Part shown: positions 36,012 through 61,091 of the stretch, piece after piece
Position numbering within the stretch: the first letter of the stretch is position 1
Layout of the letters: every line of letters begins with the position of its first letter
Assembly (NCBI RefSeq): GCF_002934265.1
Contig: NZ_PTIX01000001.1
Location: 248,001 to 312,000, forward strand
DNA: 64,000 nt
DNA from: Actinokineospora auranticolor
GTDB lineage: Bacteria; Actinomycetota; Actinomycetes; Mycobacteriales; Pseudonocardiaceae
Direction of reading: 5' to 3'
The notes under the pieces: model-generated
The model's input: the letters and a program-made list of their open reading frames with translations, nothing else
What the model was told of the DNA's origin: nothing
Database searches by the model: none
Made by a program: the position numbers and the translations under genes

Positions 36012-36054
36012 GGTCCCCCCTCGACCGGCCAACCCTAATCCCCTGTCGCGCGCC

Positions 36055-37503: not shown

Positions 37504-37516
37504 GATGCTCGGCAGT

Positions 37517-37534: not shown

Positions 37535-37686
37535 TCATGGTCGCGCGGTCGTCGTCCACCACGTCAGCCGTGCCATCTGACAGAAGCCGGCCAAACGTCA
37601 GCCCGATCGGGTGGTCGTTGCCAAGATCGCGGATCGCGGGCCGTGTTCTCCATACCCTGGAATCCCCGGCGGTTCAGGAGTGGACG

Positions 37687-40600: not shown

Positions 40601-41379
40601 ACCCCAGGCAGTTGGGGGAGCCGGTCGTGGGGAGCGAGACGGTTTACACCTTGGCGTTCAGCCCGGACGGGCGCACGTTGGCCTCGGGGGCGGGCGACGA
40701 CAGCGTCGCGGTGTGGGATGTGGCAGATCCGTTGCACCCCAAGGTTCTCCGGTCGATCACGGAGCACAGCAGTCCGGTGTACACGGTCGCGTTCAGCCCC
40801 GACGGGCGCACGCTGGTGTCCAGCAGCTTCGACAAGTCCGTGCGGCTGTGGGACGTGTCCGACCCGGCGCGGCCGACGGCGCTGGGGGAGCCGTTGGTGT
40901 ACGACTCGCCGGTGTACGCGGTCCGGTTCAGCCCGGACGGTCGGATCCTGGCGACCGGCGACTACTCGACCGTGCGGCTGTGGGACGTCACGGACCGCGC
41001 GCGTCCCGTGCGGCTGCCCGAACCGCAGGCGGGGCACACCGACACGATCTTCACCATGGCCTTCAGCCCGGACGGCCGCACGTTGGCCACGGGCGGTTTC
41101 GACCAGGCGGTGCGGTTGTGGGACGTCTCCGACCCGCGCGCGCCGGTGTTGTCGGAGGAGTCGCTCGGCGGCTACGGCGCGGGCGTGCTGTCGGTGTCGT
41201 TCAGCGCGGACGGGCGGACGCTGGCGACGGGGAGCATGGACCGGACCCTGCGGCTGTGGAACCTCGACGTGGTGGGCGATGCCCGTCGGGTCTGTGACAC
41301 CACCCGCGGCACTCTGACCCCGGACAGCTGGCGCGCGCACGTCGGCGAGGACGTGCCGTACGCGCCGCCCTGTCCGTGA
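37687..41379 (+). CDS. STAND NTPase with transmembrane segment and 14 WD40 repeats
   Basis: 1,230 residues. N-terminal extension (MTGVVYGTAIQAAHLTQVGG, ~16-40), an nSTAND1-type NTPase domain from SDCPYPGLAAFGPEQAAWFF, with Walker A VVAPSGAGKSSVLRAGL (Lys110) and Walker B PLIVVDQFEELFTL (Asp181), a helical region ending RGWLDADRAG, one transmembrane helix (~489-509, TAVIAVLGVLALVASGAAVW), then 14 WD40 repeats (~569-1215), enough for two seven-bladed propellers. GTG 37687 follows CAGGAG; the frame is open far upstream but without coding character. STAND proteins with WD40 sensors act as signal hubs, sometimes in antiphage defence; here no effector domain is recognised, so the output is unknown. 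Confidence 0.9.
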   Translation: MEQDRTVSKSVSRNEMTGVVYGTAIQAAHLTQVGGDQHLYYDDGVPAQRRAVPGRVESDCPYPGLAAFGPEQAAWFFGRERVVADLVAHLDSRQTAGGVQVVVAPSGAGKSSVLRAGLLPAFARGAVPGARRPSVVLTPTAEPMRALAAHIAALTGSGSLPDNPADWVSLVDSVRPLIVVDQFEELFTLCPDLAQRRAFIELLVRLAAAPNPAALVVFGVRSDFYSACVDHPELRVALQDKPLVIGPMAEAELRQAIVFPARAAGLRVEDGFVEVLLRDLGASGGDYEAGRLPLLAHALRVGWQQRHGHLLTVRGYQDTGGIRYALATSAERVYSGLDPAGRNAAAWLFPRLVRVGDGTEDIRRRLSRDELLSMSMDPARVAAVADAFTQARLLTRRADTVEITHEALLRHWPRLRGWLDADRAGRLLRQDLEDAAVAWVRGGRDGALLYRGSRLEQATGTHPGELSATGWAFLDAGVRARRRASGLRTAVIAVLGVLALVASGAAVWAAQSRQDAVEQRDLAVYRRVVSEADRLRPVDPSLSAQLSLVAHRMRPSQDTYSRLVVAGNGPLSTPLTGHTDGVWGLAFSPDGRTLASSGADQTVRLWAVGDPRRPVALGGPLIGPEGQLGSVAFSPDGRVLAAGSSDGKVWLWDVSNPAHPARLGAPLAVATRGAVPVAFKPDAPVLATGGADHRVLLWDVADPAHPRPAGPPIAAHDGPVGALAFGLGGQALVTGGDDGAIRLWRVADPAAPAPLGGVVIDKNVRVTSVAFSPDGRLVATNGDTKLRMVDVTDPTAPRPLAESPPRHTNAVNGVAFSPDGATVATASTDQSARLWNVADPDPPVAVGEPLTGHTRAVHTVAFGPGGHTLATAGADRVVRLWDLPPSSLDAGLGVVASTAVSPATGMLATGGVGGGVRQWSMTEPAQVRQAGPPLKGHTEIVYALAYRPDGRVLASGSQDHSIRLWDVSDPVHPRQLGEPVVGSETVYTLAFSPDGRTLASGAGDDSVAVWDVADPLHPKVLRSITEHSSPVYTVAFSPDGRTLVSSSFDKSVRLWDVSDPARPTALGEPLVYDSPVYAVRFSPDGRILATGDYSTVRLWDVTDRARPVRLPEPQAGHTDTIFTMAFSPDGRTLATGGFDQAVRLWDVSDPRAPVLSEESLGGYGAGVLSVSFSADGRTLATGSMDRTLRLWNLDVVGDARRVCDTTRGTLTPDSWRAHVGEDVPYAPPCP

Positions 41380-43003: not shown

Positions 43004-44473
<1,470 letters not shown>

Positions 44474-44585: not shown

Positions 44586-45896
44586 TCAGACCGCGACCGC
44601 GCAGGTGTCCGATGCCGAGCCGCCGTAGACGCTGACTATGCCGGTCTTCCCGTCGGCGTAGAAGCGGGTCATGATGCCCGCCGGGTGGGAGCCGAAGAGG
44701 AGGGGGCCGAGTACCGGGGCGACTTCCGCCTGGTGGGCCTCGTCTCCCTCCTCCGGGATCACCCACAGGGAGCAGGTTTGCGGGGTGACGTGTTCCTGGA
44801 CGACGCTCGTCCCCACCTCCGCCGCGGCGGTCACCGCCGACTCCCACTCGCCGGGGGCGGTGTCGCGGCCGATCATGACCTGTTCACCACTCATCCCCAG
44901 CCCCGCCTTCAACACCAACCGCTCCTGAGTGTCCACTGTGAAGCGGAGCAGGTCTACCTCGCGGTCCTCCCAGGTTGTTCGGCGGTCGGTCAGGACTCGG
45001 GTCCACGGTAGGTACTTCGCGACCAAGGCGCGTTCGGCGGTGGTCATCCACGGCCGTCCTTCCGACAGCAGGCCCATGGTCACCTTGCTCGACAGGAAAG
45101 TCGACGTCTGCGTGCCCACCAGCAGGCACCCGTGGTCCAGCGCCTCCTGCACGGGTGCCATGTCGATCCCCAGGCCCTCCCAATCCGGGATGGTGAAGTT
45201 GCGCAACCCCACCCCGTACCGCGACTCCGGCGCGCAATCCCAGGCTCCGTGCAGATCCTCGGGCTCGAAGAACCGCGCGTGCAGGCCCAAGGCGCCGAAG
45301 TACTCGGACTCCAGGTCGAAGTACCGCGTCGACGACACCCCCTGGTCCCGCGCACTTCCGACGATCGCCACCCTCGGCGACACACCGAGTTCCACGCACA
45401 GGTCCCGGAACATCGCGGCCCGGGCGCCGAACGGGCTCAACCCGTCGATGCCGTAGAGGTCACGCCACACCGCCATCCGGCAGTGCGTCTCGATCGGACC
45501 GCCCAGGGCGCCGCTGACGTTGAACTCGAGGAACTTCGGGCCGTCCGGGCCGATCACCACGTCCGGGCGGGCCACGCGGTCGGCGTAGCGCTCCTCCAGG
45601 AGTTGGTCCGCCACGAACAGCCGGTGCTCGCTCTCCGGCATCCGGTACGCCTTCAGCCGACCCTCGGTCGTGTCCGCCGTCTCCAAGGCCGTGCGCCGCA
45701 CCAGGTCCAGCAGTGCCGAAGCGGCGCGGAACAGCTCGGCGTGGGAGGCTCGGGGCAGGGCGATCGGGGCGGCGGGGAGGAACGGCTGGTACGGCCAGCC
45801 CGTGTCGCGGATCTCGTAGTGCAGCCGCTCGCGGATGACGGGGGCTGGTGCCGTCGGCGCGAAACTGTAAGCTCCGAACCAGGGGTGCGTGGTCAT
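44586..45896 (-). CDS. ATP-grasp amide ligase-like protein (glutathionylspermidine synthase-like)
   Basis: 436 residues. RPDVVIGPDGPKFLEFNVSG is the acidic metal/ATP-binding block of preATP-grasp/GspS-type ligases, and LVLKAGLGMSGEQVMIGRDT looks like the glycine-rich nucleotide loop; SVVQEHVTPQTCSLWV is a further strand of the grasp fold. Such enzymes make amide bonds through acyl phosphates. It starts at ATG 45896, only 41 bp from the divergent MaoC start, and ends near rox. Its place beside the alpha-oxoamine synthase operon suggests that it joins an amino acid to the product. The name is by fold; sequence identity to known ligases looks low. Confidence 0.75.
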   Translation of the reverse strand: MTTHPWFGAYSFAPTAPAPVIRERLHYEIRDTGWPYQPFLPAAPIALPRASHAELFRAASALLDLVRRTALETADTTEGRLKAYRMPESEHRLFVADQLLEERYADRVARPDVVIGPDGPKFLEFNVSGALGGPIETHCRMAVWRDLYGIDGLSPFGARAAMFRDLCVELGVSPRVAIVGSARDQGVSSTRYFDLESEYFGALGLHARFFEPEDLHGAWDCAPESRYGVGLRNFTIPDWEGLGIDMAPVQEALDHGCLLVGTQTSTFLSSKVTMGLLSEGRPWMTTAERALVAKYLPWTRVLTDRRTTWEDREVDLLRFTVDTQERLVLKAGLGMSGEQVMIGRDTAPGEWESAVTAAAEVGTSVVQEHVTPQTCSLWVIPEEGDEAHQAEVAPVLGPLLFGSHPAGIMTRFYADGKTGIVSVYGGSASDTCAVAV

Positions 45897-45937
45897 CGGT
45901 GAGCACTTCCTTTGCAAACCAACGTGAAGGGGCGGGC

Positions 45938-46438
45938 ATGACGCTGCGGCAGGTGGGGGACGACGAGTTCGTCGAGGAGCACGGGGGCGACTACGAGGAC
46001 TTCGAGCCCGGCATGGTGATCCGGCACTGGCCCGGTCGGACGCTCACCGAGACCGACAACACCTGGCTCACCCTGCTGACCATGAACCAGCACCCCCTGC
46101 ACTTCGACCGCGCCTACGGCGAGGGCGCCGAGTACGGGCGGATCCTGGTCAACAGCGGCATCACGCTGTGCCTCGTCGGCGGCATGACCGTGCAGGCCCT
46201 CTCCGCGCGGGCCGTGGCCAACCTCGGGTGGGACCGGGTCCGGCTCAAGGACCCGGTCTACGTCGGCGACACCCTCTACGCCACCAGCCGGATCCTCGGC
46301 AAGCGGCTCTCGAACTCCCGGCCCGGCAACGGGATCATCACCGTCGAGACCACCGGCACCAAGTCCACCGGTGAGACCGTCATCGTGTTCGAGCGCTCGT
46401 TCATGGTCCGCTGCCGCACTCACCCGGACGCCTCGTAG
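45938..46438 (+). CDS. MaoC-family dehydratase/hydratase
   Basis: 166 residues, hot-dog fold hydratase_2. The catalytic segment MNQHPLHFDRAYGEGAEYGR (Asp-x4-5-His type) and VKDPVYVGD-like RLKDPVYVGDTLYATSRI are clear. The closest theme is mesaconyl-CoA/beta-methylmalyl-CoA dehydratases, which dehydrate malyl-CoA-like thioesters. ATG 45938 follows GAAGGGGCGGGC. It lies divergent from the ATP-grasp gene and convergent with the OCD-type gene (18-19 bp overlap of 3' ends). In the cluster it would dehydrate the CitE product. Confidence 0.88.
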   Translation: MTLRQVGDDEFVEEHGGDYEDFEPGMVIRHWPGRTLTETDNTWLTLLTMNQHPLHFDRAYGEGAEYGRILVNSGITLCLVGGMTVQALSARAVANLGWDRVRLKDPVYVGDTLYATSRILGKRLSNSRPGNGIITVETTGTKSTGETVIVFERSFMVRCRTHPDAS

Positions 46439-47346
46439 AGCGCCGCCGCGGCAGCGGTGTCCTCAATGGCCATACCGACACCGCGGAACACCGTGGTGCC
46501 AACGGGTCGATCCGTCACGGTGCCCAGGTCGTGCAGGTCCGCCTCGGTGATCAGGCCGCGGGCCAGCGCGGCCCGCACCTCACCGGCGTCCTCGACCGCC
46601 GCGGCGCGCTCCTCGACCACGACGAAGGCCGCCGCGAGCAGCGCCGGGTCGACCTCGACGGCATCCTCGTGCGTGCCGCCGATGACGTTGACGTGCGCGC
46701 CGCGCGCCACCCAGTCGGCCGCCACCAACGGTTCCGAGCCCGAGGTCGACGTCGCGGTGCAGATGATCGGGGAGTCCACCACGGCGTCCCGCACCGAGGC
46801 GCACACCGACACCGGCAGGCCGTGGCTCTCCCGAACCCAGGACGCGAACTCCCCGGTCCGCGCCGGGGTCCGGGAGAACACCCGAACAGTCCTGATCGGA
46901 CGTACGGCCGACACCGCGTTCACCAACGCCCTTGCCTGAACTCCAGCCCCGACAAGGGAGAGTTCGTCCGCACCCGGGTCCGCGCACACCCGCGTGGCCA
47001 GGGCGGCGACCGCGCCGGTCCGCACGGCGGTCAGTTCGGCGCCGTCCAGCAGCGCGGTGATCCGGCCCGTCACCAGGTCGGTCAGCACCACGACACCGTG
47101 GATCAGCGGCAGCCCGCGCGCGGGGTTGTCCGGTGTCAGCGTCGTGATCTTCACGCTGCCCACCCCGCGACGCTCCCACACGGCTGTCCCGGCCAGCAGC
47201 TGGCTGTCACCGTGTTCGACGACCGTCCGCGACGGCGAGCGAGTCGCCCCCGCCGCGAGGTCGGCGAACACCTCAGCCAGCGCGTCGACCACCCGCAGCA
47301 TCCGCTTCGGACCGGACATCCGCGCGGCGGTGACGGTGGTGGTCAC
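46420..47346 (-). CDS. Ornithine cyclodeaminase/mu-crystallin family NAD(P)-dependent enzyme
   Basis: 308 residues. Rossmann motif [20 protein letters not shown] (~129-148), [20 protein letters not shown] (substrate Lys region) and [36 protein letters not shown] typical of OCD/mu-crystallin proteins. Family members include cyclodeaminases, imine reductases and, in some natural product pathways, enoyl or keto reductases; which applies is not readable. The GTG start overlaps the aldolase stop by 4 bp; it is the last gene of the operon. I infer a reductive role after MaoC in this cluster. Confidence 0.85.
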
Positions 47347-48350
47347 GCGACCTCCCGGCGGCCCAGCTCGGCGACCACGTCCACGATCAGGTCCTCCTGG
47401 CCCGCGATCGCCTGCCGCCTGCCCAGCTCGAAGAACACGTCGCGGGGGTCCACCCCGGCCCGGCCCGCCGCGTCCAGCACCTGGTGCTTGAAGCCGGAGA
47501 ACACCCCGGCGAGCCCGCTGACGATGCTCAGCGACCCGGTGACCGGCGGCGCGGGCATCAGCTCGCGCTCGGCGAACTCGGCCGCGTCGAGCAGGCCGTA
47601 GAGGTCGATGCCGGTGTCGAAGCCGAGGCGTTCGAGCACCGGCACCAGCACCTCCAGCTGGGTGTTGCCCGCGCCGGCGCCGAAGCCGCGCGCGCAGCCA
47701 TCGATGATCGTGGCCCCGGCCTGCGCGGCGGCGACCGAGTTGGCGACCGCCATGCCCAGGTTGTTGTGCCCGTGGAAGATGACCGGCACGTCGACGGCGG
47801 CGGCGATCGCACCGATGCGCGCGGACACGTCCGGTGGCAGGAAGTTGCCCGCCGAGTCCATCAGGCCGACGGCCCGCGCGCCGTAGCCGACGGCCGCGAC
47901 GGCGTGCTCGGCCAATTGGTCGGGGGAAGCCATGTGGCTCATCATCAGCACGCAGTGCCCGTCCGCGCCCTGTTCCGCGAGGAAGCCCAGGTGCCGCTCG
48001 GCCAGCGAGGTCTCGGTGCAGTGCACCCCGATCCGCACCACGTCCGCGCCGTGCTCGAGCGCCCGGTGCAGGTCCGTGGACGTGCCCCAGCCGGGCAGCA
48101 TGAACACGCCCATCCGGCTGTGCCGCAACGCCTCCCGGACGGTCGAGAGCATCACGTCGTCGCTCACGGCGGCCCGCCCGACCTGGAGGGACGACGCCCC
48201 CAGCCCGTTGCCGTGGCCGACCTCGACCACCGGCACACCGGCCGCGTCGGCGGCCTCGGCGTACCCGCGCAACGCGGCGACGTCGAGCTGGTGGCGCACC
48301 GCGTGCTGCCCGTCGCGCAACGTGGGGTCGTGGATGATGACTCGGTTCAT
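47343..48350 (-). CDS. 4-hydroxy-2-oxovalerate aldolase-like protein (DmpG/BphI family)
   Basis: 335 residues, HMGL-like TIM barrel. [15 protein letters not shown] at the N-terminus is the signature of 4-hydroxy-2-ketoacid aldolases; metal ligands appear in [20 protein letters not shown], and [20 protein letters not shown] is conserved. It cleaves or forms 4-hydroxy-2-oxo acids from pyruvate and an aldehyde and normally forms a channelling complex with an acylating aldehyde dehydrogenase, encoded next upstream. In this biosynthetic setting the synthetic direction is plausible. A repeated copy of its start region lies 104 bp upstream. Confidence 0.9.
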
Positions 48351-48450
48351 CGGTGCACCCCCGGTTCCCTGGACCACGCGTGACAGGCCGTGTGTTGATG
48401 GGCGGATATCGGCTGGCGGCGCACTGCCGAGCGGTGGATGGCCATCCGGG

Positions 48451-49362
48451 TCATCGGTGCACCCCGGTTCTCGCGGAGCGCGCCAAGCGGCCCGCGTGCT
48501 GCTCGGCGGCCAGGATGGCGGCCGCGTTGATGATGTCGAGGTTGCCCGCGTAGTGCGGCAGCACATCGCTGTTGGCGGTGACCTCGACCGACACCACCAC
48601 GCGGTCGCCGGTCACGGTGCAGCCCAGCACCTCGTAGCCCGGCGCGAAGGTGCGCACGGCCTTCGCCGCCGTGGACACCGCGGCCCGGACCTCCTCGACC
48701 TCGGCGCCCGGGACGATCGCGCGGACGGCCGTGCGGAACGTCGCGGGTGGGACCGCCGGGCTGATGTTGAGGATCGCCTTGGTGTCGCGCACCCCGGTGA
48801 ACTCGCTGAGCGCCTGGCGGGTGGTGGCCACGTACTCGTCGAGGTTGATCCGGGTCGCGCGGCCCGCGATCGTGCTGGCCACGGTCGACACGGCCTCCAG
48901 GTACTCGACCCGGTACCGGCCCGCCAGCGCGTGCGCCACCGGCACCGCCGCCTGACCGCCGCAGCTGACCAGGCTGATGTCGGCGCACTCCGGCACCCCG
49001 GTGACCGTCGGCACCACCATCCGGCCCAGCTTGCTCGGCGTCAGGTCGACCAGCAGCGTGCCCAGCGGCTCCAGCAGCCGCCGGTGCTCGGCGTGCGCGG
49101 CGGCGCTGGTCGCGTCGAACACGACCGCGAACCGCTCCGCCGCCAGGATCGCGTCGACGCCGTCCGCGCTGGTCGGGCAGCCGAGCCGGGCCGCGTGCCG
49201 CAAGCCCGCGGACTCCGGGTTGCGCCCCGCCACCAGCGCGCAGTCCAACACGGGCGACCGGAGCGCCTTGTGCACCAGGTCCTGCCCGATCGCCCCGGTG
49301 CCGAGCACCGCCACCCGCACCGGCGCCACGAGGTCCGTGGCCGGGATCTCCACCGCCGTCAC
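48451..49362 (-). CDS. Acetaldehyde dehydrogenase (acylating), DmpF/MhpF family
   Basis: 303 residues. NAD-binding [20 protein letters not shown], catalytic Cys134 in [19 protein letters not shown], and [20 protein letters not shown]. Interconverts acyl-CoA and aldehyde with NAD(H); its partner aldolase is the next gene, as in meta-cleavage operons. GTG start at 49362 ([20 protein letters not shown]). There are no ring-cleavage genes here, so it is unlikely to be catabolic; it could feed an aldehyde from an acyl-CoA to the aldolase. Confidence 0.88.
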
Positions 49363-49438
49363 CGCGCACCCCCGCGCCGTCCGACCGCACCGTCCCCATC
49401 CGCCGGAGCGATCCGGTCGACCGTCGTCCACGTCGTTC

Positions 49439-50341
49439 TCACCGCGCACCCCCACGCTGCTCGACCACGCCATCTCCCCCCAGCAGTGCGGTCCGCGCAC
49501 CTCCGAACCGCGCTGTCCACGCGTCTCCCCGCACCGCCGTCATCTCCGCCAGCCGGGCGAAGGGCGGGCCGACCATCGCGCCGTCCAGCACCGCCACCCC
49601 GCCGCCCGCCGCGTGGACCGCCTCCGTCACGCGCCGCGCCCTGGCCAGTTCCGCCGGGTCCGGGCGCAGGGCCGCGTTGATCGCGGGCAGCTCCGCCGGG
49701 TGCACGGTCGCCTTCCCGTGGAAGCCCAGCTCCCGGATCCGGGTCAGCTCGTCGGCCAGCACGTCCGGCGCGGACAGCCGGAAGTTGGCCGTGTCCACGC
49801 ACGCCTTGCCGTGCCGCGCGCAGGCCAGGGCCATCGCCTGGCGGGCGGCGAGCATCCCGGCCCAGGTGATCTCCACGCCCAGCGTCGCGGCCAGGTCGGC
49901 CGAGCCGAGGACCAGGCCGTCGGCCGCCGCGGTGATCGCGTCGAGGTCGGCCAGCGCGGCGACGGTCTCGACGGTCACGTAGACCTCCGGCGCGGCCCCG
50001 GCGCCCGCCAGGGTGTCGCGCAGCAGGCGCACCTCGACCGCCGACTCGACCATCGTCATCACCACGAACCCGGGCCGCACCGCCGACTCGGCCAGCAGCA
50101 CCAGGTCGTGGACCGCCTCGACCGTGCCCAGCGGGTTCACCCGGACGGCGACGTTCTCCGGTCTCGGCGCCTTCGCCAGGGCCGCGCGGCACACCTCCCG
50201 CGCCGCCGCCTTCTCCCGGGGCGGCACCGAGTCCTCCAGGTCGACCAGGTGCACGTCCGCGTCGTACGACCACGCCTTCACGACCCGGTCCAGCGACAGC
50301 GCCGGGGTGTACAGGACGCTGCGCGGGATGGCCCCGGTCAC
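49439..50341 (-). CDS. CitE-like HpcH/HpaI aldolase/lyase (malyl-CoA-type)
   Basis: 300 residues of the CitE-like family: YDADVHLVDLEDSVPPREKA (metal-binding Asp/Glu), VAVRVNPLGTVEAVHDLVLL, VTVETVAALADLDAITAAAD, GLVLGSADLAATLGVEITWA and GFHGKATVHPAELPAINAAL. These enzymes condense acyl-CoAs with 2-oxo acids or glyoxylate (malyl-, citramalyl-CoA lyases). GTG start overlaps the preceding stop by 4 bp. In ketomemicin-type pathways a related aldolase starts the chain from a 2-oxo acid and malonyl-CoA; the same role is inferred here. Confidence 0.88.
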   Translation of the reverse strand: MTGAIPRSVLYTPALSLDRVVKAWSYDADVHLVDLEDSVPPREKAAAREVCRAALAKAPRPENVAVRVNPLGTVEAVHDLVLLAESAVRPGFVVMTMVESAVEVRLLRDTLAGAGAAPEVYVTVETVAALADLDAITAAADGLVLGSADLAATLGVEITWAGMLAARQAMALACARHGKACVDTANFRLSAPDVLADELTRIRELGFHGKATVHPAELPAINAALRPDPAELARARRVTEAVHAAGGGVAVLDGAMVGPPFARLAEMTAVRGDAWTARFGGARTALLGGDGVVEQRGGAR

Positions 50342-51600
50342 CGCAGCACCCCGCCCGGCACCTCGTCGGCCAGGGTGACCGCGTCGGCGCCGACCTCGAC
50401 CAGCACCCGGCACAGCGACCGGATCTGGTCGACCGTCTGACCGGCTCGCATCATCACCCGCAGCCCGGCCGTGCCGCGCGGCACGATCGGGAAGAACACC
50501 GGCGAGACGTAGAACCCGGCCTCGAACACCCGCCTGCCCGCGTCGATGACGGCGTCGTCGCCCATCGGCACGACCCGGATCGGGAACTCCGCCCCCGACT
50601 GCGCGGTCCGCACCAGCGAGTCGAACAGCTCGATGTTGGCCGCCAGCCGGGTTTGCCGCGTGACCAGCTCCGGCGTCCGGTGGATCGCCGCGGACGCCAA
50701 GGACGCGCCGACGGCGGCGGTGTTCATCGGCTGCGAGTAGCTCAGCGCCCCGGCGAACCGCTCGATCACCCGCAGCACGGACTTGTCGAAGCCGTCCAGC
50801 ACGATCGCCGCGCCGCTGGTGCCGAACGCCTTGTTGAGCGTGGCCACGGTGACCGTGCGCGCGTCCTGCAGCCTGCTGTTCTCCCGCACGTACCCCATGC
50901 CGCGCTCGCCGTAGGCCGACACGGAGTGCGAGTCGTCGAAGTAGACCAGCAGCCCGTACCGGTCCTGGAGGTCGTTGAGCTCCTTCACCGGCGCGTACCC
51001 GCCGAGGCTGTCGGCACCGTCGACGACGTAGCAGACCCGCTCGTAGCGCTTGCACATGTCTTCCAGGAAGCCGAGGTCGTGGTGGGCGCAGGTGACCACC
51101 TCGGTCTCGTCCGCGCACGCGGGCTTCGCGTTGGCCATCGACACGTGGCAGTACTTGTCGAACACCATCAGCGGCCGGGTCCCGTCACCGAGGTGCCCGG
51201 ACGCGACCAGCGGCAGCAGTCCCGCGCTGGCCACCCCCGCCGAGATCGCGGACACCACGTCGGCGTCCCACAGCTCGCCCAGCGACGCCTCCAGCTCCAG
51301 CAGCGCCGGGATCTGCACGCGGCTGCGCGGGATGCAGTGGTCGAGCACGCCGAAGCGGCGCAGCGCGGCCACCGCGCCCTCGATCACCTCGGGGTGCGAG
51401 TCGAGGTCGAGGTAGGAGCAGCAGGTGAAGTTGACGAACTCGTGCCCGTCGGCGGTGCGCAGCAGGCCGTCGTCGAGCTCGGCGACGATCCCGGCGAGAC
51501 CGTTGCGCTCGGACATGTCCCAGAACGCGTTGCCGATCCCGACGGCCTTGTCGTTGTCCCGGTACCGGTGCGGCGGGGTGATCGACTCGCGCCCGGTCAC
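50338..51600 (-). CDS. PLP-dependent alpha-oxoamine synthase (AONS/KBL/ALAS type)
   Basis: 420 residues, fold-type I. PLP Lys257 in TVTVATLNKAFGTSGAAIVL; cofactor Asp/His in LVYFDDSHSVSAYGERGMGY; CIPRSRVQIPALLELEASLG and VDGADSLGGYAPVKELNDLQ are as in 8-amino-7-oxononanoate and 2-amino-3-oxobutyrate synthases. It joins an acyl-CoA to the alpha-carbon of an amino acid with loss of CO2, giving an alpha-amino ketone. GTG start overlaps the JmjC stop (GTGA). It is the key C-C bond-forming enzyme of the cluster; biotin or haem roles are unlikely given its neighbours. Confidence 0.9.
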   Translation of the reverse strand: MTGRESITPPHRYRDNDKAVGIGNAFWDMSERNGLAGIVAELDDGLLRTADGHEFVNFTCCSYLDLDSHPEVIEGAVAALRRFGVLDHCIPRSRVQIPALLELEASLGELWDADVVSAISAGVASAGLLPLVASGHLGDGTRPLMVFDKYCHVSMANAKPACADETEVVTCAHHDLGFLEDMCKRYERVCYVVDGADSLGGYAPVKELNDLQDRYGLLVYFDDSHSVSAYGERGMGYVRENSRLQDARTVTVATLNKAFGTSGAAIVLDGFDKSVLRVIERFAGALSYSQPMNTAAVGASLASAAIHRTPELVTRQTRLAANIELFDSLVRTAQSGAEFPIRVVPMGDDAVIDAGRRVFEAGFYVSPVFFPIVPRGTAGLRVMMRAGQTVDQIRSLCRVLVEVGADAVTLADEVPGGVLR

Positions 51601-52466
51601 GACTGCGACTCCGCGGGCTGGTAGTTGTAGACGCCCTTGAGCTTGCGGTAGAGCGCGGTGTAGAGCGCGACACCGAGCACGTACGGGCGGCGCAGGATCT
51701 TCGTGTCGCGCAGCCAGAAGTTCATGTTGATGTTCATGTCGGCCAGCGACTCCGCCTGGTGCCACCAGCCCAGCGGCAGGTACAGCATCTGACCGGGCTC
51801 CAGGACCAGCTCGCGCCGCTCGGCCAACCGGCCCACCAGCTTGGGGAACCGCCGCGCGTCGACGTTGTCGAAGTCGAACGCCTGGGACTTGTCGCCGAAG
51901 CCCTTGCGCAGCGAGCGCGGGTAGTAGTCCCACGACCCCGGCGGCGCCAGCACGAACCGCTTGCGGCCCTCCAGCGCGATGTTGAAGTTCTCCAGCTCGT
52001 CGAAGTGGCTCTGGGTGAACACGCCCTTGTGGCTGATCCACAGGTTCGCCGCGTTGAGCGAGCGCCGGTAGTCGAACAGCTCCCCGGCGTCGAAGCCCAG
52101 GATCGCGTTGACGTCGGCCGGGTTGTTGCGGATGTTGGACACGATCCGGTTCCACGTGCCCGGGTCGGTCAGGTACCGCTCGTCGGCGAAGAACTCGCGC
52201 AGCTTGATGTCGCGCGTGGTCCAGCGCGCGGAGTTCTGCTTGTCGCTGGGCTCGGTGAACAGCGTCACCGACATGTCGCCCAGCCGCTCCGCGACACCCT
52301 CGCGGCCCAGCCCTTGGACGCTGTCGGGCAGCGTGATCACCACGGGCACGTCCGCCCGGATCAGCGCCTCCCGGCCGAACGCCAGGAACTCGTCGAAACC
52401 CAACCGGGGCACCGGGACCCCGCCCAGTTCCTCGGTGACCGGCTCAACCGACTCTGTTGTGCTCAT
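51597..52466 (-). CDS. JmjC/cupin_8-type 2-oxoglutarate/Fe(II) oxygenase
   Basis: 289 residues. Iron ligands His154 and Asp156 in TQSHFDELENFN and distal His236 in YLPLGWWHQAESLADMNINM; 2-oxoglutarate-binding residues are likely in RKRFVLAPPGSWDYYP. The fold resembles FIH-like JmjC hydroxylases, often acting on amino acids or peptides. ATG 52466 with GAGGG upstream, 10 bp after the transporter stop. In the cluster it would hydroxylate an intermediate or the final product. Confidence 0.88.
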   Translation of the reverse strand: MSTTESVEPVTEELGGVPVPRLGFDEFLAFGREALIRADVPVVITLPDSVQGLGREGVAERLGDMSVTLFTEPSDKQNSARWTTRDIKLREFFADERYLTDPGTWNRIVSNIRNNPADVNAILGFDAGELFDYRRSLNAANLWISHKGVFTQSHFDELENFNIALEGRKRFVLAPPGSWDYYPRSLRKGFGDKSQAFDFDNVDARRFPKLVGRLAERRELVLEPGQMLYLPLGWWHQAESLADMNINMNFWLRDTKILRRPYVLGVALYTALYRKLKGVYNYQPAESQS

Positions 52467-52476
52467 GGTGTTTCCC

Positions 52477-53721
52477 TCACCTCTCCACGACCGAACCACT
52501 ACCCGCGGGCACGTCCCGGGTGCCCGCGTGCAACGCGGACTGGCCCAACAGGCTCAACGCCAGCGCGACGACCCCGCCGCCGACCGCGGCCAGCGCCGCG
52601 TGCGACGAACCGCCGGACTCGGCGAGCCGCCCGCCCACCGCCGTGCCCGCGGCGATGCCGAGCGCGCCCGCGCTGCTCAGCCACGAGAACCCCTCCGACA
52701 GGGAACCCCTGGGTGCCAACGACTCCAACAACGTGCTACCCGCGATCAACGACGGCGACAGGGCCACCCCGGCCACCACCGCCAACCCCGCCATCGCCAG
52801 GGACGACCCGGCGAACGCCAGCGGCACCGTGCCCACCGCCACCGTCCCGGCGGTGATCGACAGCAGCCGGGCCTGCGACAGCCGCCAGTCCACCGCCCCG
52901 TACACCCCGCCCGCGACCAGGCTCCCCACCGCCGTGAGCGACAGGAACACCCCGGCCATCCCGGGCGACCCCTGCTCCTTCGCGAACGCGACCATGGTCA
53001 CGTCCACCGCGCCGAGCAGGAAACCCAACCCCGCGTAGGCGACGATCAACACCTGCACGCCGCGCACCGCGATCGCCCGCCGCGGCCCGCTCGGGTCGAC
53101 CGGCTTCACGCCGGGCTCGGACGGCTTGTGCAGCGCCAGCGCGATCGAGCCCGCGGTGGTCAGCACGACGCACGCCACCAGCCCCGCCGCCGGGTGCGCC
53201 GCGGTGGCCAGCGCCGTGGCCAGCAGCGGTCCCAGCAGGAAGATGGTCTCGTCCAACATGGACTCGAGCGCGTACGCGGTGCGCAGCCCGCCCTGGTCGA
53301 CCAGCGCGGCCCACCTGGCCCGCATGAACGACGTCAGCGACACCGACGAGCAGCCGGTCACCACCGCCGCGACCACCAGCAGCCACAGCGGCGCCCGCAG
53401 CACCGCCGCCACCAGCAGCCAGACCAGGCCCAGGCCGTGGCCCGCGCACGCGAGCAGCAGCACGCGCCGCTGGCTGTGCCGGTCGGCCAGCCGCCCGAGC
53501 ACCGGGCTCGCCAGCCCCTGCGCGACCAGCAGCGTCGCCGCGACCACCCCGGCCTGTCCGAGTGAACCGGTCGCCGCGGACACCAGCAGCAGGCAGGCCA
53601 GCGAGCGCATGGCGATGGGGAAGCGCCCGACGAAGCCCCACAGGCCCAGTGCCGCGGCCCCGGGCGAACGCAGCAACGTCGAATACGCCAGAAAGCCGGA
53701 TTTGGCGCCCCCTGCGGACAC
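52477..53721 (-). CDS. MFS transporter of the biosynthetic cluster
   Basis: 414 residues with 12 hydrophobic helices; loop motif LGRLADRHSQRRVLLLACAG. First gene of the seven-gene minus-strand operon. GTG 53721 follows GGAG (5 nt), with a good promoter ~85 bp upstream. As the only transporter in the cluster it is the probable exporter of the product, giving self-protection. Confidence 0.87.
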   Translation of the reverse strand: MSAGGAKSGFLAYSTLLRSPGAAALGLWGFVGRFPIAMRSLACLLLVSAATGSLGQAGVVAATLLVAQGLASPVLGRLADRHSQRRVLLLACAGHGLGLVWLLVAAVLRAPLWLLVVAAVVTGCSSVSLTSFMRARWAALVDQGGLRTAYALESMLDETIFLLGPLLATALATAAHPAAGLVACVVLTTAGSIALALHKPSEPGVKPVDPSGPRRAIAVRGVQVLIVAYAGLGFLLGAVDVTMVAFAKEQGSPGMAGVFLSLTAVGSLVAGGVYGAVDWRLSQARLLSITAGTVAVGTVPLAFAGSSLAMAGLAVVAGVALSPSLIAGSTLLESLAPRGSLSEGFSWLSSAGALGIAAGTAVGGRLAESGGSSHAALAAVGGGVVALALSLLGQSALHAGTRDVPAGSGSVVER

Positions 53722-54148
53722 AATGCTCCTGTTCTGTGAATACTGGTAATGCCCCGCCGAAAGGCCGAACCGCCGCGCTGCTCGCTAAACGCGGCGACGC
53801 CGGGTCACGCTAGGCGGGCTCCCACCTGCTGTCAATGCCCCAAACGCGCCGCGACCCGGGGCTGAAAGGCGCAACCGGGTACGCATTCCGGTATCGCGTT
53901 TCGCCGCACGGACAAACGCGAGAACGGGTCGGGTCCAGGGTGCGTTCCGCCCATATTCCACCTCCGGGAAAGCCGCGTCGATCAACCACGATACCCATTA
54001 CCCCGCCGGGTCGCTTTGTGGTCATCGTGTGGCCAAGGTGGACCGTTAGGGTGGACGGTGTGATCCGGACCGCACTGGGCCGCCGTTCAGCCGGTGGTGT
54101 GGTGACCGAGGTGGACAGCCGCCCGCGCGGGCGCCCGAAGGGGCGGGA
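53722..54148. other. Intergenic region with cluster promoter
   Basis: 427 bp between the cluster operon and the ApbE gene. It holds a strong promoter on the minus strand; no gene with coding character is seen, though short open frames exist. Confidence 0.6.
53807..53835 (-). promoter_or_regulatory. Strong sigma70-type promoter for the biosynthetic operon
   Basis: On the minus strand TTGACA (53835-53830), 17-bp spacer, TAGCGT (53812-53807). The -35 is perfect, which is unusual in this genome. Transcription would start near 53800, leaving an ~80-nt leader before the transporter start. Confidence 0.65.
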
Positions 54149-54916
54149 TCAGGCCACGACGGTGGTGCGGCCGTCGCGCCAGACGACCAGGCCGGTGCGG
54201 TCGGGCCGGGTGCGCAGCCAGGTGGCGGCGTCGCGGCCGTGCGCGTAGGCGGCGGTGGCGTCGATGTCGGCCCAGGTGAGGGTGTCGGCGACGACGGTCA
54301 CCGAGGCGACGTCGGCGGGCGGGCGGCCGGTGCGGCCGTCCACGATGTGCTCGCCGCGGTGCGCGGTGCCGGAGGTCGCGACCGCGCCGGAGCGGATCGG
54401 GATGACGGCGATGATCTTGCTGGGGGAGCGCGGGTCCTCGACGCCGACGCGCCACGGCGCGCCGTCCGGGTCGAGGGTCCGGCAGACCAGGTCGCCGCCT
54501 GCGGAGAGGCAGAAGCCGGTGTCGGGCAACGCGCGCAGGTGCTCGGCGGCGCGCTCGGCCGCCCAGCCCTTGACCACGCCGTTCGGGTCCAGCACGGACT
54601 CGCCGTCCGGGCCCGGGCGCCGGACGCGGAAGGCGCCGCCGGAGTCGTGCTCGGCCCACTCGGCCAGTCCGAGCACCTCGGTGACCTCGGGTGGGCAGTC
54701 CACCGGGCCGATCTCGCCGCGGCCGAGGCGGGAGATCACCGAGTCCACGCGGAACGTGCTGAACACGCGGTCCACCTCGCGCAACTCGGCCATCACCGCC
54801 GCCCACGCCGACCGCGCCGACGCGTCGTCGGTGTGCGCGCCGCGCAGGGCGAGGCTGATCGGCATGCCCATGACGTGCTCGACGTAGCGCTTCGAGTCCG
54901 GTGTGGATGGTGCCAT
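54149..54916 (-). CDS. apbE: FAD:protein FMN transferase (ApbE family)
   Basis: 255 residues. Motifs: VEHVMGMPISLALRG, DRVFSTFRVDSVISRLGRGE, LDPNGVVKGWAAERAAEHL, CLSAGGDLVCR and TSGTAHRGEHIVDGRTGRPP (Mg/FAD binding) and TWADIDATAAYAHGRDAATW. It transfers FMN from FAD to a Thr of the target in a phosphoester bond; the target is most likely the FMN-binding protein next to it, whose stop overlaps this ATG (TGATG). Part of the three-gene redox operon. Confidence 0.92.
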   Translation of the reverse strand: MAPSTPDSKRYVEHVMGMPISLALRGAHTDDASARSAWAAVMAELREVDRVFSTFRVDSVISRLGRGEIGPVDCPPEVTEVLGLAEWAEHDSGGAFRVRRPGPDGESVLDPNGVVKGWAAERAAEHLRALPDTGFCLSAGGDLVCRTLDPDGAPWRVGVEDPRSPSKIIAVIPIRSGAVATSGTAHRGEHIVDGRTGRPPADVASVTVVADTLTWADIDATAAYAHGRDAATWLRTRPDRTGLVVWRDGRTTVVA

Positions 54917-55320
54917 CACAGCCCCGCCTCGTCGAGCGCGCCCTGGAGGGACTCGCGGTAGCCCTCGCTGGTCACCGTAGCGCCGCTGACCATGTCGATG
55001 TCGGCGCTCTGCGCGTCGAGCGCCTCCTCGGTGAGGATGGGCAGCGCGCGGGCGTTGATCTGCTGGTCCTTGCGGTTGGCATCGGGGGACTGGAGCACGG
55101 TGACCGCGGTGACCTTGTTGTCCGCCAGGGTGATCGCGACCTGCACCGCACCCCAGCGGGTCTGCGCCACCGGACCGGTGACCGTCCGGCCACCCGACGA
55201 CGTGCCGACCGCGACCACCTCCGAACTCGCGGGCAGCGCGGCGGAGGTCGAGGTGTGGTAACCGAAGAGGAGCACGAGGACGGTGAGCGTGCTCAAACCC
55301 CACATGACGACGCGTTTCAT
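54916..55320 (-). CDS. Membrane-anchored FMN-binding domain protein
   Basis: 134 residues. N-terminal membrane helix or signal (VVMWGLSTLTVLVLLFGYHT, ~4-24), then an FMN_bind domain ending DIDMVSGATVTSEGYRESLQ, where the Thr of SGATVTS is the expected covalent FMN site. Would carry electrons outside the membrane. Located 4 bp after the ferric-reductase-like gene and before apbE. Confidence 0.9.
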   Translation of the reverse strand: MKRVVMWGLSTLTVLVLLFGYHTSTSAALPASSEVVAVGTSSGGRTVTGPVAQTRWGAVQVAITLADNKVTAVTVLQSPDANRKDQQINARALPILTEEALDAQSADIDMVSGATVTSEGYRESLQGALDEAGL

Positions 55321-55324
55321 GACC

Positions 55325-56725
55325 TCACCACTCGAAGTGCTCGACGTGCAGCCGCGCGGCCGGGAGCCCGGCGGCCTGGACCGTGCGGCACACCAGCGCC
55401 GCCCACGGCGCCGGACCGCACACGTACACGTCGTGGTCGGCGATATCGGGTACCAGCGCGCGCAGGACCGCCAGGTCGTCGAGCCGCGCGACGCCGTCGC
55501 CGAGCCAGGAGTCGTGGCCGCGGCGGTGGCCCGGGAGGGGCACCACCCGGAGCCCGCGTTGCCGGGCCAGGTCCTGGAACTCGGTCTCGAAGAGGGGGCG
55601 GTCGGTGAACCGGTGCAGCACAACGGCTTCGCCCGGCGCGTACGCCATTCCCCCGGCCAGCGCGCGCAGCGGCGCGATGCCGACACCCGCGCCGATCAAC
55701 GCCACCTTCCGACTCGCACGGGCGCGTTCGGTGAGCCTGCCGAAGGGGCCTTCGAACAGGACCCGGGTGCCGGGTCGCAGCTGTGCGACGCGGATGCTGT
55801 TGTCGCCCAACGCTTGCACAGTGATGCGCAGGCCGCGGCCGTCGGGCGCGGCGGAGAGGGAGTACGGGTTGCCGCGTGTCCAGCCCTTCCGGTCGAGGAA
55901 CCGCCAACCGAGGAACTGACCGGCCTGAGCCGGGAAAAGGCGCAGGTCCCGTCCGGTGAGGTGCACCGAGTACACGCCGTCGCCCTCCGGCACCACGGCG
56001 CTGACGCGCAGCCGGTGCCGCAGGTTCCGCGTGATCGGGACCCCTAGCCGCCAGACCAGCACCGCGCCGACGGAGGCGCCCCAGAGGGACCACCAGAACA
56101 CCGTGGTCGCGGTGGAGGACAGGAAGTCCTGGCCGGTCCACAACTGGTGCGGCAGCGCCAAGCCGACGCCGAGGTAGGCGTAGAGGTGCAGCAGGTGCCA
56201 CGACTCGTAGCGGATCTTCCGGCGCGCGGCCTTGACGCTGGTCACGGCCGTGAGCACCAGGCAGACCGTGCCCGCGAGCGCCAGCAGCATGCCCGGGTAC
56301 TCGGTCACCAGCTGCCAGGACGTCGCGGGTGTCTCGACCAGGTCGCCCGCCGCGTAGCCCCAGGTGATCAGGACGACGTGGGCCAGCATGAGGTTGACCG
56401 AGGTGAACCCGACGACGCGGTGGTGGCGGACGAGGCGGTCCTGGCCGAAGGCGCGTTCGAGGACCGGGACCCTGGCCATCATCAGGACCTGCGCCAGCAG
56501 CAGCACGGACGCGACCAGGCCGGTGAGGCGACCGAGGGAGGTCAGGCCGGACTCCCACTCCGCCAGCGCCCCGAGGCCGCCGCCGGTGGTCCACCAGTAC
56601 GTGACCAGCAGCAGCGCCGCCCACAGCGCCGAACCGGCGGCGATTCGCACGCCGCGGTCGACACCCGCGGGCGAGGTCGTCGGGACGGTCGCGGGCAGCG
56701 TCGGCGGTTCGGTGAGGGCGGTCAC
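55325..56725 (-). CDS. Ferric reductase-like transmembrane protein with FAD/NAD domains
   Basis: 466 residues. N-terminal six-helix ferric-reductase domain (haem His in RHHRVVGFTSVNLMLAHVVL and WHLLHLYAYLGVGLALPHQL), FAD-binding AGQFLGWRFLDRK, NPYSLSAAPDG and NAD-binding VALIGAGVGIAPLRALAG, VYVCGPAPW. Start at GTG 56725 with GGAAGGA. It would move electrons from NAD(P)H across the membrane to the FMN protein next in the operon. The final electron acceptor is unknown. Confidence 0.9.
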   Translation of the reverse strand: MTALTEPPTLPATVPTTSPAGVDRGVRIAAGSALWAALLLVTYWWTTGGGLGALAEWESGLTSLGRLTGLVASVLLLAQVLMMARVPVLERAFGQDRLVRHHRVVGFTSVNLMLAHVVLITWGYAAGDLVETPATSWQLVTEYPGMLLALAGTVCLVLTAVTSVKAARRKIRYESWHLLHLYAYLGVGLALPHQLWTGQDFLSSTATTVFWWSLWGASVGAVLVWRLGVPITRNLRHRLRVSAVVPEGDGVYSVHLTGRDLRLFPAQAGQFLGWRFLDRKGWTRGNPYSLSAAPDGRGLRITVQALGDNSIRVAQLRPGTRVLFEGPFGRLTERARASRKVALIGAGVGIAPLRALAGGMAYAPGEAVVLHRFTDRPLFETEFQDLARQRGLRVVPLPGHRRGHDSWLGDGVARLDDLAVLRALVPDIADHDVYVCGPAPWAALVCRTVQAAGLPAARLHVEHFEW

Positions 56726-57343
56726 GGGCGGTCCTTCCGGTCGACTGCCCCTACCGTCGCCGACGGTTCTGGGAGCGCGTTGGGAGCGACCTGTGCGTCC
56801 GCTGTGCGTGGGAGCGGACCGGTGAATGGCGGGATTTCCGCGGTTTTGTACGCGAATGCGAACTGGACAAAAACGGGACGGGCGAGTCTTCCGCGTGGCC
56901 GGAAGGTTGCCCACACTTTCGGGTGAATATTGCGCCTAGGGGTGGGCGGAGCGCGGTCGTCTCCGGTATTGATCTTCAAAAAACTTCGTGACATCGCCTG
57001 GTCCACTGGCATTTCCCCATGCCGCCAGTGGACTACCGGCGCTCCACCCGATGGGGTGACAGTCAGGCGTTTCCCGGTCTGGGTAAAGTACGCGTGTCAT
57101 TGCGAGTCGCTTCTCGGTACTCCCACCGTCCCCCCGTTCTCCGCGACCGTTCGGCTCCGCGAAGGAGCGATTCGTCGCAGACTCGGCGGTCGGTTGGAAA
57201 ACCGCGTGGGGCTTCCTGCATGATTGCCGCGAGGGCGGGATGGACGTGAAAGTGCGGCTCCCCGGTAGGCGCCGGGGAGCCGCACGTCCAGACCGGCCCG
57301 CACCTCTGGACCGAGTGTGAAGCGAACAGGAGGCACGAACCAA
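56726..57343. other. Intergenic region, no confident gene
   Basis: About 0.6 kb with short frames only and no ribosome site ahead of them. AT-richer than neighbours near 56830-56960, probably the promoter zone of the redox operon. Contains the hairpin at 57252-57285. Confidence 0.5.
57252..57285. terminator. 14-bp perfect stem-loop
   Basis: GTGCGGCTCCCCGG (57252-57265) pairs with 57272-57285 around TAGGCG. No clear gene ends just before it on either strand, so it may be a terminator for an unannotated transcript, or insulate the next gene. Confidence 0.6.
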
Positions 57344-59809: not shown

Positions 59810-61021
59810 TCACCAGGTGACCGGCATGGTGTAGAGCCCGTAGATCGTGGCGTCGTCCTTGTACGGCAGCTCGTCCGCCGGGGTGGCCAGGGCGAGGGTG
59901 GGGACGCGGCGGAAGAGGGTGGCGAAGACGGTCTCGAGTTCCAGGCGGGCGAGGTTCTGGCCGAGGCACTGGTGCGGGCCGTAGCCGAAGGCCACGTGGT
60001 GGCGGGCGTCGCGGTGGACGTCGAAGGTGTCCGGGTCGGGGAAGGCGGCGGGGTCGTGGTTGGCGGCGTGGCCGACGGCGAGGACGCCCTCGCCCTCGCG
60101 GATCGGGGTGCCGCCGATCGCCAGGTCCGCGGTGGCCACGCGGGACAGGGCGCTCTCCACGACGCTGAGGTAGCGCAGCAGCTCCTCGACCGCGCCCGGC
60201 ACCAACCCCGGGTCCCGGCGCACGGCGGCCAGCTGGTCCGGGTGCTCCAGCAGGGTCATGGTGCCCAGGGAGATCATGTTCGCGGTGGTCTCGTGGCCCG
60301 CGATCAGCAGCAGGGTGGCCAGCGACACCAGCTCGGCGTGGTCCTCCGCGCCCGCCGCGCGCTGCCGCCGGACCTGCCTGCCCAGCAGGTCGTCGCCGGG
60401 GTCGGCGGCCTTGGCGGTGATCAGCCCGCTCAGGTACTCCTGCAGCTCCCGGATCGCCCGGTCGCGGTCGTCCGGTGCGGTCGACCGCCGCACGACCGCC
60501 GCGCTGCGCTCCTGGAAGAACACGTGGTCGGCGTAGGGGACGCCGAGCAGCTCGCAGATCACCAGCGACGGCACCGGCAGCGCCAGCGCCGCGACCAGGT
60601 CGGCGGGCCGGGGACCGGCCAGCAGCGCGTCGACGCACTCGTCAACGACTCGCTGGACCCGCGGCCTCAGCTCGCGCATGCGGCGCACGGTGAACTCACC
60701 CAGCACCGCCCGCCGCGCGGGGCCGTGCTCGGGCGGGTCGAGCGACAGCATCGGCACCCGGTCCCGGAAGGTCAGGTTCGGCTTGGCGCGCAGCAGGAAC
60801 GGGAACCCGGGGGCGCGCCGGTCGGAGCTGAACCGGGTGTCGGCGAGCAGCGCCCGCACCTCCGCGTAGCGGGTCACCAGCCACGCGGGCTCGCCGTTGG
60901 GGAGCCGCACCCGGGCCACCGGCTCCCGCTCCCGAAGCCGCGCGTACTCCGCCGACGGGGTGTACGGGCAGGTCCGGGGCACCGGAACCGCCAGTAGGGT
61001 CTCGTCGGTCACGTCGGCCAT
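59810..61021 (-). CDS. Cytochrome P450 (CYP105-like)
   Basis: 403 residues. I-helix LLLIAGHETTANMISLGTMT, K-helix ExxR in VEELLRYLSVVESALSR, and haem loop HVAFGYGPHQCLGQNLARLE with Cys352. DPPEHGPARRAVLGEFTVRR is typical of bacterial class I P450s, and overall motifs fit the CYP105 group that oxidises drugs and secondary metabolites. ATG 61021 follows GGAGGGGCGGGC. No ferredoxin or reductase adjacent, so it relies on partners elsewhere. Substrate unknown. Confidence 0.92.
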   Translation of the reverse strand: MADVTDETLLAVPVPRTCPYTPSAEYARLREREPVARVRLPNGEPAWLVTRYAEVRALLADTRFSSDRRAPGFPFLLRAKPNLTFRDRVPMLSLDPPEHGPARRAVLGEFTVRRMRELRPRVQRVVDECVDALLAGPRPADLVAALALPVPSLVICELLGVPYADHVFFQERSAAVVRRSTAPDDRDRAIRELQEYLSGLITAKAADPGDDLLGRQVRRQRAAGAEDHAELVSLATLLLIAGHETTANMISLGTMTLLEHPDQLAAVRRDPGLVPGAVEELLRYLSVVESALSRVATADLAIGGTPIREGEGVLAVGHAANHDPAAFPDPDTFDVHRDARHHVAFGYGPHQCLGQNLARLELETVFATLFRRVPTLALATPADELPYKDDATIYGLYTMPVTW

Positions 61022-61091
61022 CGCCCGCCCCTCCACCTCGACTGAACCACTCACGGTAATCGGGCGGTGGCTCCGCGTCTACATCGGCTGG

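Follow-up and report, generated by a model that had tools for sequence, protein, structure and literature searches.

The DNA analyzed here (the window) is a 64,000-nucleotide stretch of contig NZ_PTIX01000001.1 from Actinokineospora auranticolor, and a compact cluster of nine genes lies in it at 44586..53835, where it was first noted by a reader working from the letters alone (the sequence-only reading). Coordinates are positions in the window unless a locus is named. Pfam and NCBIfam profile searches, with a check of start and stop codons, found all nine genes at their positions and bore out the families and the operon that had been assigned to them. Seven of the genes form one minus-strand run from 53721 to 46420. 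It opens with a major facilitator superfamily (MFS) exporter (52477..53721; PF07690, 8.5e-22) and continues with an FIH-like JmjC/Cupin_8 Fe(II)/2-oxoglutarate oxygenase (51597..52466; PF13621, 3e-28), an alpha-oxoamine synthase (AOS) of the KtmB/Alb29 subfamily (50338..51600; NF005697, 520 bits), a CitE/HpcH-HpaI type aldolase (49439..50341; PF03328, 7.7e-21), an acylating aldehyde dehydrogenase of the DmpF type (48451..49362; TIGR03215, 290.6 bits against a cut-off of 282.25), a DmpG-type 4-hydroxy-2-oxo acid aldolase with its communication domain (47343..48350; PF00682, PF07836, and TIGR03217 at 352.2 bits against a cut-off of 286), and a reductase of the ornithine cyclodeaminase (OCD)/mu-crystallin fold (46420..47346; PF02423, 1.5e-53), for which we propose the KtmF step of ketomemicin biosynthesis. 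Four-base overlaps join JmjC to AOS, AOS to CitE, and DmpG to OCD. A MaoC-type hydratase/dehydratase of the mesaconyl-/itaconyl-CoA hydratase group (45938..46438, plus strand; PF19315, 3.7e-20; PF01575, 7.9e-16) converges on the OCD gene, with which its end overlaps, and the start of an ATP-grasp amide ligase gene (44586..45896, minus strand) lies 41 bases from the MaoC start. The cluster had been described as free of polyketide synthase and nonribosomal peptide synthetase genes; this stands for the nine genes themselves, to which the check was confined and none of which belongs to either class.

The putative catalytic residues of the enzymes are conserved among orthologues. Among solved chains, the synthase is nearest to 8xhk, 8xha, 8i7u, and 8xhd (~310 bits), versus 82.9 bits for 1fc4, a 2-amino-3-ketobutyrate CoA ligase, and it is far closer to the ketomemicin-type subfamily than to that ligase; K257, placed by motif, is its putative pyridoxal phosphate lysine. 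In the aldolase, R67, E125, and D149, which we take to be catalytic, are present in 83 of 83 rows. The JmjC protein matches FIH chains at 70.9 bits and JMJD5 at ~46 bits, and its putative catalytic residues, as we assume H153, D155, K168, and H235 to be, are identical in 56 of 56 rows. Cys134 of the dehydrogenase, already singled out in the sequence-only reading, is kept in all 56 rows. Among NCBIfam models, CitE scores highest with RipC (173.5 bits, below the cut-off of 375) and MaoC with RipB (191.9 bits, below the cut-off of 340), both well short of assignment.

The ligase required a structural approach, as the window protein has no Pfam match and a profile of 28 relatives gave weak matches to two circularly permuted ATP-grasp ligases (E values of 0.007 and 0.024). 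A model built from 28 diverse rows reached a mean pLDDT of 86.7 (38 for an earlier model from ten close orthologues), and its best Foldseek matches were 8fbz (E value of 8e-15, TM of 0.65), 2hgs (2.2e-14), and 3n6x (4e-11), a set representing human glutathione synthetase (at 8e-15) and glutathionylspermidine synthetases. The modeled protein folds like glutathione synthetase and is classed here as a predicted glutathione-synthetase-type ATP-grasp ligase.

Conservation of the gene set and its relation to ketomemicin clusters

A synthase search (E <= 1e-60) of 297 genomes from the window's family returned 13 with a match, the window's own genome included. Ten others carry an orthologue at 73 to 83% identity, and all nine genes are found in nine of these ten loci; the tenth (L028) is without the dehydrogenase, DmpG, and the ligase. 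When named genomes were scanned using the synthase alignment, with two motifs serving to find loci, 65 were obtained, spanning Actinomycetota, Pseudomonadota, and one cyanobacterium, with hosts that include Actinokineospora, Streptomyces, Micromonospora, Nocardia, Serratia, Xenorhabdus, Pseudomonas protegens, Trinickia, Burkholderia, Rhizobium, Oxalobacteraceae, and Nostoc. By tblastn, homologues were present in these 65 loci for CitE (64), OCD (63), MaoC (61), DmpG (56), the dehydrogenase (55), JmjC (55), the ligase (42), and the MFS exporter (40), some counts being depressed by contig ends and the most distant loci (L084 and L096) giving weak or scattered matches. All nine genes occur in 28 of the 65, and six core enzymes (AOS, CitE, MaoC, OCD, DmpF, and DmpG) occur together in 54, a figure that takes in L099, whose DmpG match is a 55-residue piece (the full DmpG is on L159). 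The unnamed loci (L019-L028) and the named ones (L035-L099) overlap (e.g., L020 is L035, and L028 is L051), and the two sets are not summed. Because the genes recur in this way in both the family and the named loci, their co-occurrence exceeds chance, and the expectation that they would be conserved together elsewhere was upheld.

The distribution is sporadic: across the class, a synthase match at 1e-40 was found in 7 of 394 genomes, the window's included. Clusters are nearly whole in many actinobacteria and simpler in Serratia, Xenorhabdus, Pseudomonas, and the cyanobacterium, and minimal clusters with CitE, MaoC, OCD, synthase, and an EamA exporter are found in Pseudoduganella, Massilia, and Duganella (L092, L093, and L097). 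In the synthase tree, the Serratia and Xenorhabdus rows are nested among actinobacterial ones, which suggests that these clusters were acquired by transfer. Two synthase loci each were found in S. goshikiensis (L072 and L078) and Pseudoduganella violacea (L091 and L092), and two synthase genes lie within one locus of B. ubonensis (L096).

The sequence-only reading had likened the cluster to ketomemicin (ktm) biosynthesis, whose genes are given in passages of PMC11943689 as ktmA (aldolase), ktmB (acyltransferase dependent on pyridoxal phosphate), ktmC (dehydratase), ktmD (ATP-grasp ligase), ktmE (amidinotransferase), and ktmF (dehydrogenase). Seven loci in our set (L030, L106, L108, L109, L111, L112, and L113) hold homologues of all six functions; in L111, the locus on which the families were checked, the medium-chain dehydrogenase/reductase (MDR) dehydrogenase and the PGM1 ligase were identified by Pfam and the amidinotransferase by a match to 1bwd (299 bits). 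These loci count as ktm by their gene content, and the window's proteins are 44 to 46% (synthase), 35 to 36% (aldolase), and 53 to 55% (MaoC dehydratase) identical to theirs. The core triad is thus homologous, and the likeness holds to that extent. The remaining ktm functions differ. No MDR dehydrogenase is among the nine genes, where OCD is present instead; weak MDR-family matches were seen in 4 of the 65 named loci (L066, L068, L071, and L091). The PGM1-type ATP-grasp ligase (KtmD) was found in none of the 65, the window ligase being of another ATP-grasp type, and the amidinotransferase (KtmE) was found neither in the 65 loci nor among the nine genes. Because the MDR dehydrogenase, the PGM1-type ligase, and the amidinotransferase are missing, the nine-gene cluster is, by its gene content, not a ktm cluster. 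The cluster is real and widespread, and on our best reading it would work like ketomemicin biosynthesis but without three of its defining genes.

Among the surroundings, a rifampin-type monooxygenase gene (43049-44473, plus strand; NF033145, 867.7 bits against a cut-off of 800) directly adjoins the ligase gene; it was considered as a cluster member and rejected, as it has no match in the ten orthologous loci. Judged by eye, the later part of a long open reading frame (ORF) at 35857-41379 (plus strand) reads as a P-loop domain with WD40 repeats after it, ApbE-like, FMN-binding, and ferric-reductase-like genes form a run at 54149-56914 (minus strand), and a cytochrome P450-like ORF lies at 59810-61054 (minus strand). 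Several related Actinokineospora loci, L022 (1797-6074) among them, have two further genes in common ahead of the MFS gene, one for a 723-residue protein that Pfam does not match and one that is arylamine N-acetyltransferase-like.

A candidate pathway and its reduction step

We lean toward a small-molecule cluster that works like, yet is distinct from, the ketomemicin pathway, and we infer its reactions from homology, as we also infer the order of the substrates, which amino acid is used, and what the product attacks. In the pathway that we propose, the DmpF-type dehydrogenase would reduce an acyl-CoA to an aldehyde, acetyl-CoA being the simplest start because no CoA ligase is among the nine genes, and DmpG would join the aldehyde to pyruvate to form a 4-hydroxy-2-oxo acid. 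CitE would add this acid to malonyl- or acetyl-CoA, and dehydration by MaoC would give a substituted fumaryl-CoA, which the oxoamine synthase would condense with an amino acid, with loss of CO2, to an amino-enone. The OCD-fold enzyme would then reduce the enone, the JmjC enzyme would hydroxylate, the ATP-grasp ligase would add an amino acid (in many actinobacteria), and the MFS protein would export the product. This would be a pseudodipeptide of the carbonylmethylene type whose C-terminal side chain is hydroxylated.

The two outer parts of this scheme, supply and ligation, were anticipated in the sequence-only reading and fared unevenly. The dehydrogenase and DmpG occur together in 55 of the 65 named loci (DmpG without dehydrogenase in one, L096, at a 27% match), and they are without matches in several OCD-bearing clusters (L028/L051, L045, L092, L093, L097, L119, and L120). 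Because some clusters with CitE, OCD, and synthase do without them, DmpF and DmpG look like a supply module making the 2-oxo acid for CitE, as had been supposed, although not one that every cluster has. For ligation, the ATP-grasp fold was confirmed in the model, but the type differs from that of ktm and the gene is not core, since the Serratia, Xenorhabdus, and Nocardia loci yielded no homologue of the window's enzyme. Twelve of the 65 named loci encode a second, related ligase-like protein.

The sequence-only reading had also placed the OCD enzyme before the synthase, and we revise this order: the enzyme probably follows the synthase and takes the step of KtmF. The ktm dehydrogenase reportedly acts last. 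The assignment rests first on the apparent alternation of OCD with MDR. A synthase match was present in 95 loci, of which 87 also have CitE and MaoC (L028 and L051, the same locus, are both counted), the other 8 being without CitE or MaoC, some at contig ends. Among these 87, with MDR counted at >= 50% identity and OCD without any floor, 67 have OCD without MDR, 3 have OCD with a weak MDR match, 15 have MDR without OCD, and 2 (L100 and L114) have neither; the 3 with both are Serratia loci, where the 29% MDR match lies 3 to 4 kb outside the operon. Two further reasons are that the small clusters in L092, L093, and L097 hold only CitE, MaoC, OCD, synthase, and the EamA exporter and that OCD enzymes add hydride to a carboxylate-bearing carbon, as the beta carbon of the enone is.

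In the synthase tree, the OCD clade (support of 99/94) neighbors a clade holding the MDR rows (100/97). The tree's deep split has OCD loci on either side: a 72-row OCD clade on one, and on the other two further lineages (L101 with L096_a, and L115 with L116) inside the clade with MDR rows (100/100). A second tree omits L102-L105, L028, the second L110 match, rows with neither gene, and rows of fewer than 300 residues (L117); with these artefact rows removed, the OCD/MDR label changes twice on the best tree, and the well-supported branches force only one change. A claim that OCD and MDR had been swapped more than once was dropped, as its count had included the unrelated second L110 match and rows with neither gene, and because it was dropped our confidence in the pathway as a whole was lowered slightly.

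Several points weigh against this reading. The OCD/MDR pattern may be explicable by a single swap, which leaves fewer independent tests than the counts imply, and the identity floors just given were unequal. Twelve of the 70 OCD matches are below 45% identity, and that of L084 lies 7 kb off on the opposite strand. The known OCD enzymes, to our knowledge, reduce C=N and not C=C bonds, so that C=C reduction by an OCD-fold enzyme would be, as far as we know, new for the family. Finally, with RipC and RipB below cut-off, CitE and MaoC have no assigned reaction.

The OCD protein itself can be read in another way. Its nearest solved structure is pyrroline-2-carboxylate reductase (6t3e, 136.9 bits), and R40 (69 of 69 rows), K66 (69 of 69), and R109 (66 of 69) are kept, which we take to be the R/K/R carboxylate site. 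The catalytic Asp of ornithine cyclodeaminase (D228) was not found: Thr stands at the motif-chosen site, in 57 of 69 rows, with no Asp among the letters listed. An alternative, which we regard as unlikely though the strongest of the rivals, is that the amino acid itself comes from DmpF, DmpG, and OCD, with OCD reductively aminating the 4-hydroxy-2-oxo acid to a 4-hydroxy amino acid for the synthase (compare archaeal alanine dehydrogenase), while CitE and MaoC use a 2-oxo acid from primary metabolism. The kept R/K/R set would suit an alpha-imino carboxylate, and the protein resembles imine reductases and alanine dehydrogenase. However, OCD is retained in the clusters listed above that are without DmpF/DmpG matches, and its distribution relative to MDR points to a step held in common with ktm clusters.

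Clues to the amino acid and the target

The window cluster has neither an arginyl-tRNA synthetase (ArgRS) nor an M24 peptidase gene, and the clues to a target therefore stem from its relatives. The P. protegens operon (L087 and L088) continues after OCD with a short-chain dehydrogenase/reductase (SDR), a weakly ATP-grasp-like protein, an MFS protein, and, at its end, a complete ArgRS (L087 17077-18789, plus strand; likewise in L088), the families being those determined on L087. It is the second in the genome: each P. protegens genome has another ArgRS, ~50% identical to the cluster copy. A survey of 249 genomes of the genus for this variant's ligase-like gene (and not for ArgRS) found it in 1, the genome that supplied the query. 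In S. chumphonensis, a divergent 687-residue ArgRS with a DALR domain lies between DmpG and SDR (L057 14522-16585, minus strand; PF00750, 2e-43). A Streptomyces ArgRS query found no other ArgRS in that assembly, whose completeness is not stated, and the cluster copy may be its only one. Nostoc mirabile has a synthase locus with OCD and the dehydrogenase (L099) and a separate 9.5-kb contig (L159) with DmpG, a 689-residue ArgRS, and SDR in the same order as in S. chumphonensis, and we infer that the two contigs belong together. Its cluster ArgRS is 55% identical to that of S. chumphonensis, and Nostoc also has a separate ArgRS.

Among 297 Streptomycetaceae and 243 Nostocales genomes, one in each sample had an ArgRS of the S. 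chumphonensis type, and both times it was the cluster carrier on which the sample was centered. The two types of cluster ArgRS (P. protegens versus S. chumphonensis/Nostoc) are ~24% identical, which suggests two separate recruitments. In other genomes, a PF00750 search gave no genome with more than one match and several with none, so the search misses some. These clusters vary in other genes as well. An SDR at least 47% identical to that of P. protegens is present in five loci (L057, L084, L087, L088, and L089), in none of which was a JmjC homologue matched; Nostoc has both SDR and JmjC. A carbamoyltransferase (61%) and a glycosyltransferase (44%) are common to the S. chumphonensis and Nostoc clusters, and their product is for that reason probably decorated.

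M24 peptidase genes lie beside 33 of the 65 named loci, 27 of them actinobacterial (e.g., the aminopeptidase P gene at L046 6123-7658, minus strand) and 6 in Serratia. They belong to two subfamilies, AMP_N (aminopeptidase P) in actinobacteria and Creatinase_N in Serratia, and one also lies beside the distant OCD cluster L101. The examined genomes with an aminopeptidase P gene at the cluster hold 2 to 4 copies. Arphamenines inhibit aminopeptidase B, according to passages of PMC11943689, and a peptide look-alike with an N-terminal arginine would fit the ArgRS and M24 clues together.

The ArgRS genes in sister clusters suggest an arginyl pseudopeptide as the product. That the synthase's amino acid is arginine is a tentative assignment, made because DynZ (below) uses arginine, because ArgRS genes occur in sister clusters, and because the synthase has an Asp-His-Cys loop unlike those of ktm and Alb29. 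D87 of this loop is kept in 65 of 66 rows, a figure that is biased, since the 65 loci were found with two motifs and the loop is in one of them; owing to this ascertainment bias, we rejected the loop as proof of an arginine substrate. It is possible, but more doubtful, that the family as a whole makes arginyl pseudopeptides that block ArgRS, with some producers protecting themselves by the operon ArgRS, with DmpF/DmpG feeding CitE, and with C=C reduction by OCD. The window's genome speaks against this, since its single ArgRS gene and its single aminopeptidase P gene both lie away from the cluster. Should the link to ArgRS hold, it would provide a natural ArgRS inhibitor, and the ArgRS passages of the review PMC7916415 name none of natural origin.

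The M24 genes also admit a reading that we consider improbable, in which the amino-enone closes on itself to a cyclic proline-like or pyridone-like product, OCD reduces the ring imine, and the neighboring peptidases handle an Xaa-Pro-like product. M24 families cut Xaa-Pro bonds, and the frequency of the genes, their two subfamilies, and their presence beside L101 would agree with it. Yet there is no M24 gene at the window cluster or its Pseudonocardiaceae relatives, the Serratia matches are at ~30% over ~200 residues in six closely related loci, S. griseus NCTC 13033 has two aminopeptidase P genes and none at its cluster (and the counts cover cluster carriers only), and the ring closure is speculative. 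Least probable by far is a catabolic module feeding central metabolism, with CitE/MaoC acting as in itaconate degradation and DmpF/DmpG degrading, since the RipC/RipB matches that favor it are far under cut-off and, although DmpF and DmpG pass the cut-offs of catabolic equivalogs, the same set holds a C-C-forming synthase, a JmjC oxygenase, a peptide ligase, and an exporter and is sporadically distributed.

Comparison with known systems

We return to the pseudopeptide-type pathway that we favor, for which precedents exist in part. In nikkomycin biosynthesis, SanN and SanM are reportedly a DmpF/DmpG-type pair in an antibiotic pathway, working with picolinate and without an oxoamine synthase or CitE; the likeness to the window's pair is by description and not by sequence. 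A literature search, with most subscription journals outside its reach, found no description of this gene set, in line with the sequence-only reading, which knew of no pathway combining these enzymes.

Among synthases, Alb29 of albogrisin biosynthesis (PDB 8XHA) is one of the four closest solved structures (~310 bits), but it uses L-glutamate, according to passages of PMC11906848, and its active-site loop differs from that of the window synthase. The dynaplanin cluster, as described in parts of PMC9239090, offers a parallel in chemistry: DynZ, identified through its homology to KtmB, couples arginine with a phenylacetyl group, a KtmB-type synthase there makes a pseudopeptide from an acyl-CoA and arginine, the usual cluster finders missed the genes, and the authors predicted further arginyl pseudopeptides. 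There, in contrast, only DynZ and DynY (GNAT) are essential and no aldolase route to the acyl-CoA was seen in those parts, whereas the window's nine genes gave no Pfam match to the GNAT family, so that no DynY counterpart was found beside the synthase. The likeness is again by description, not by DynZ sequence; distant Micromonosporaceae synthases (L165-L171) were tried as DynZ proxies and rejected, as they gave nothing usable.

Ketomemicins and arphamenines are the only natural ketomethylene pseudopeptides known, as stated in passages of PMC11943689. The ktm clusters (Micromonospora, Streptomyces mobaraensis, and Salinispora) share with the window cluster an aldolase, a pyridoxal phosphate-dependent oxoamine synthase, a dehydratase, and an ATP-grasp ligase, without PKS or NRPS genes and with a homologous triad; the window cluster differs in having OCD, DmpF, DmpG, JmjC, and a glutathione-synthetase-type ligase. 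Set beside them, it would represent a conserved pseudopeptide-type cluster that recurs in distant phyla, obtains its building blocks by a new route, and relies on another kind of reductase.

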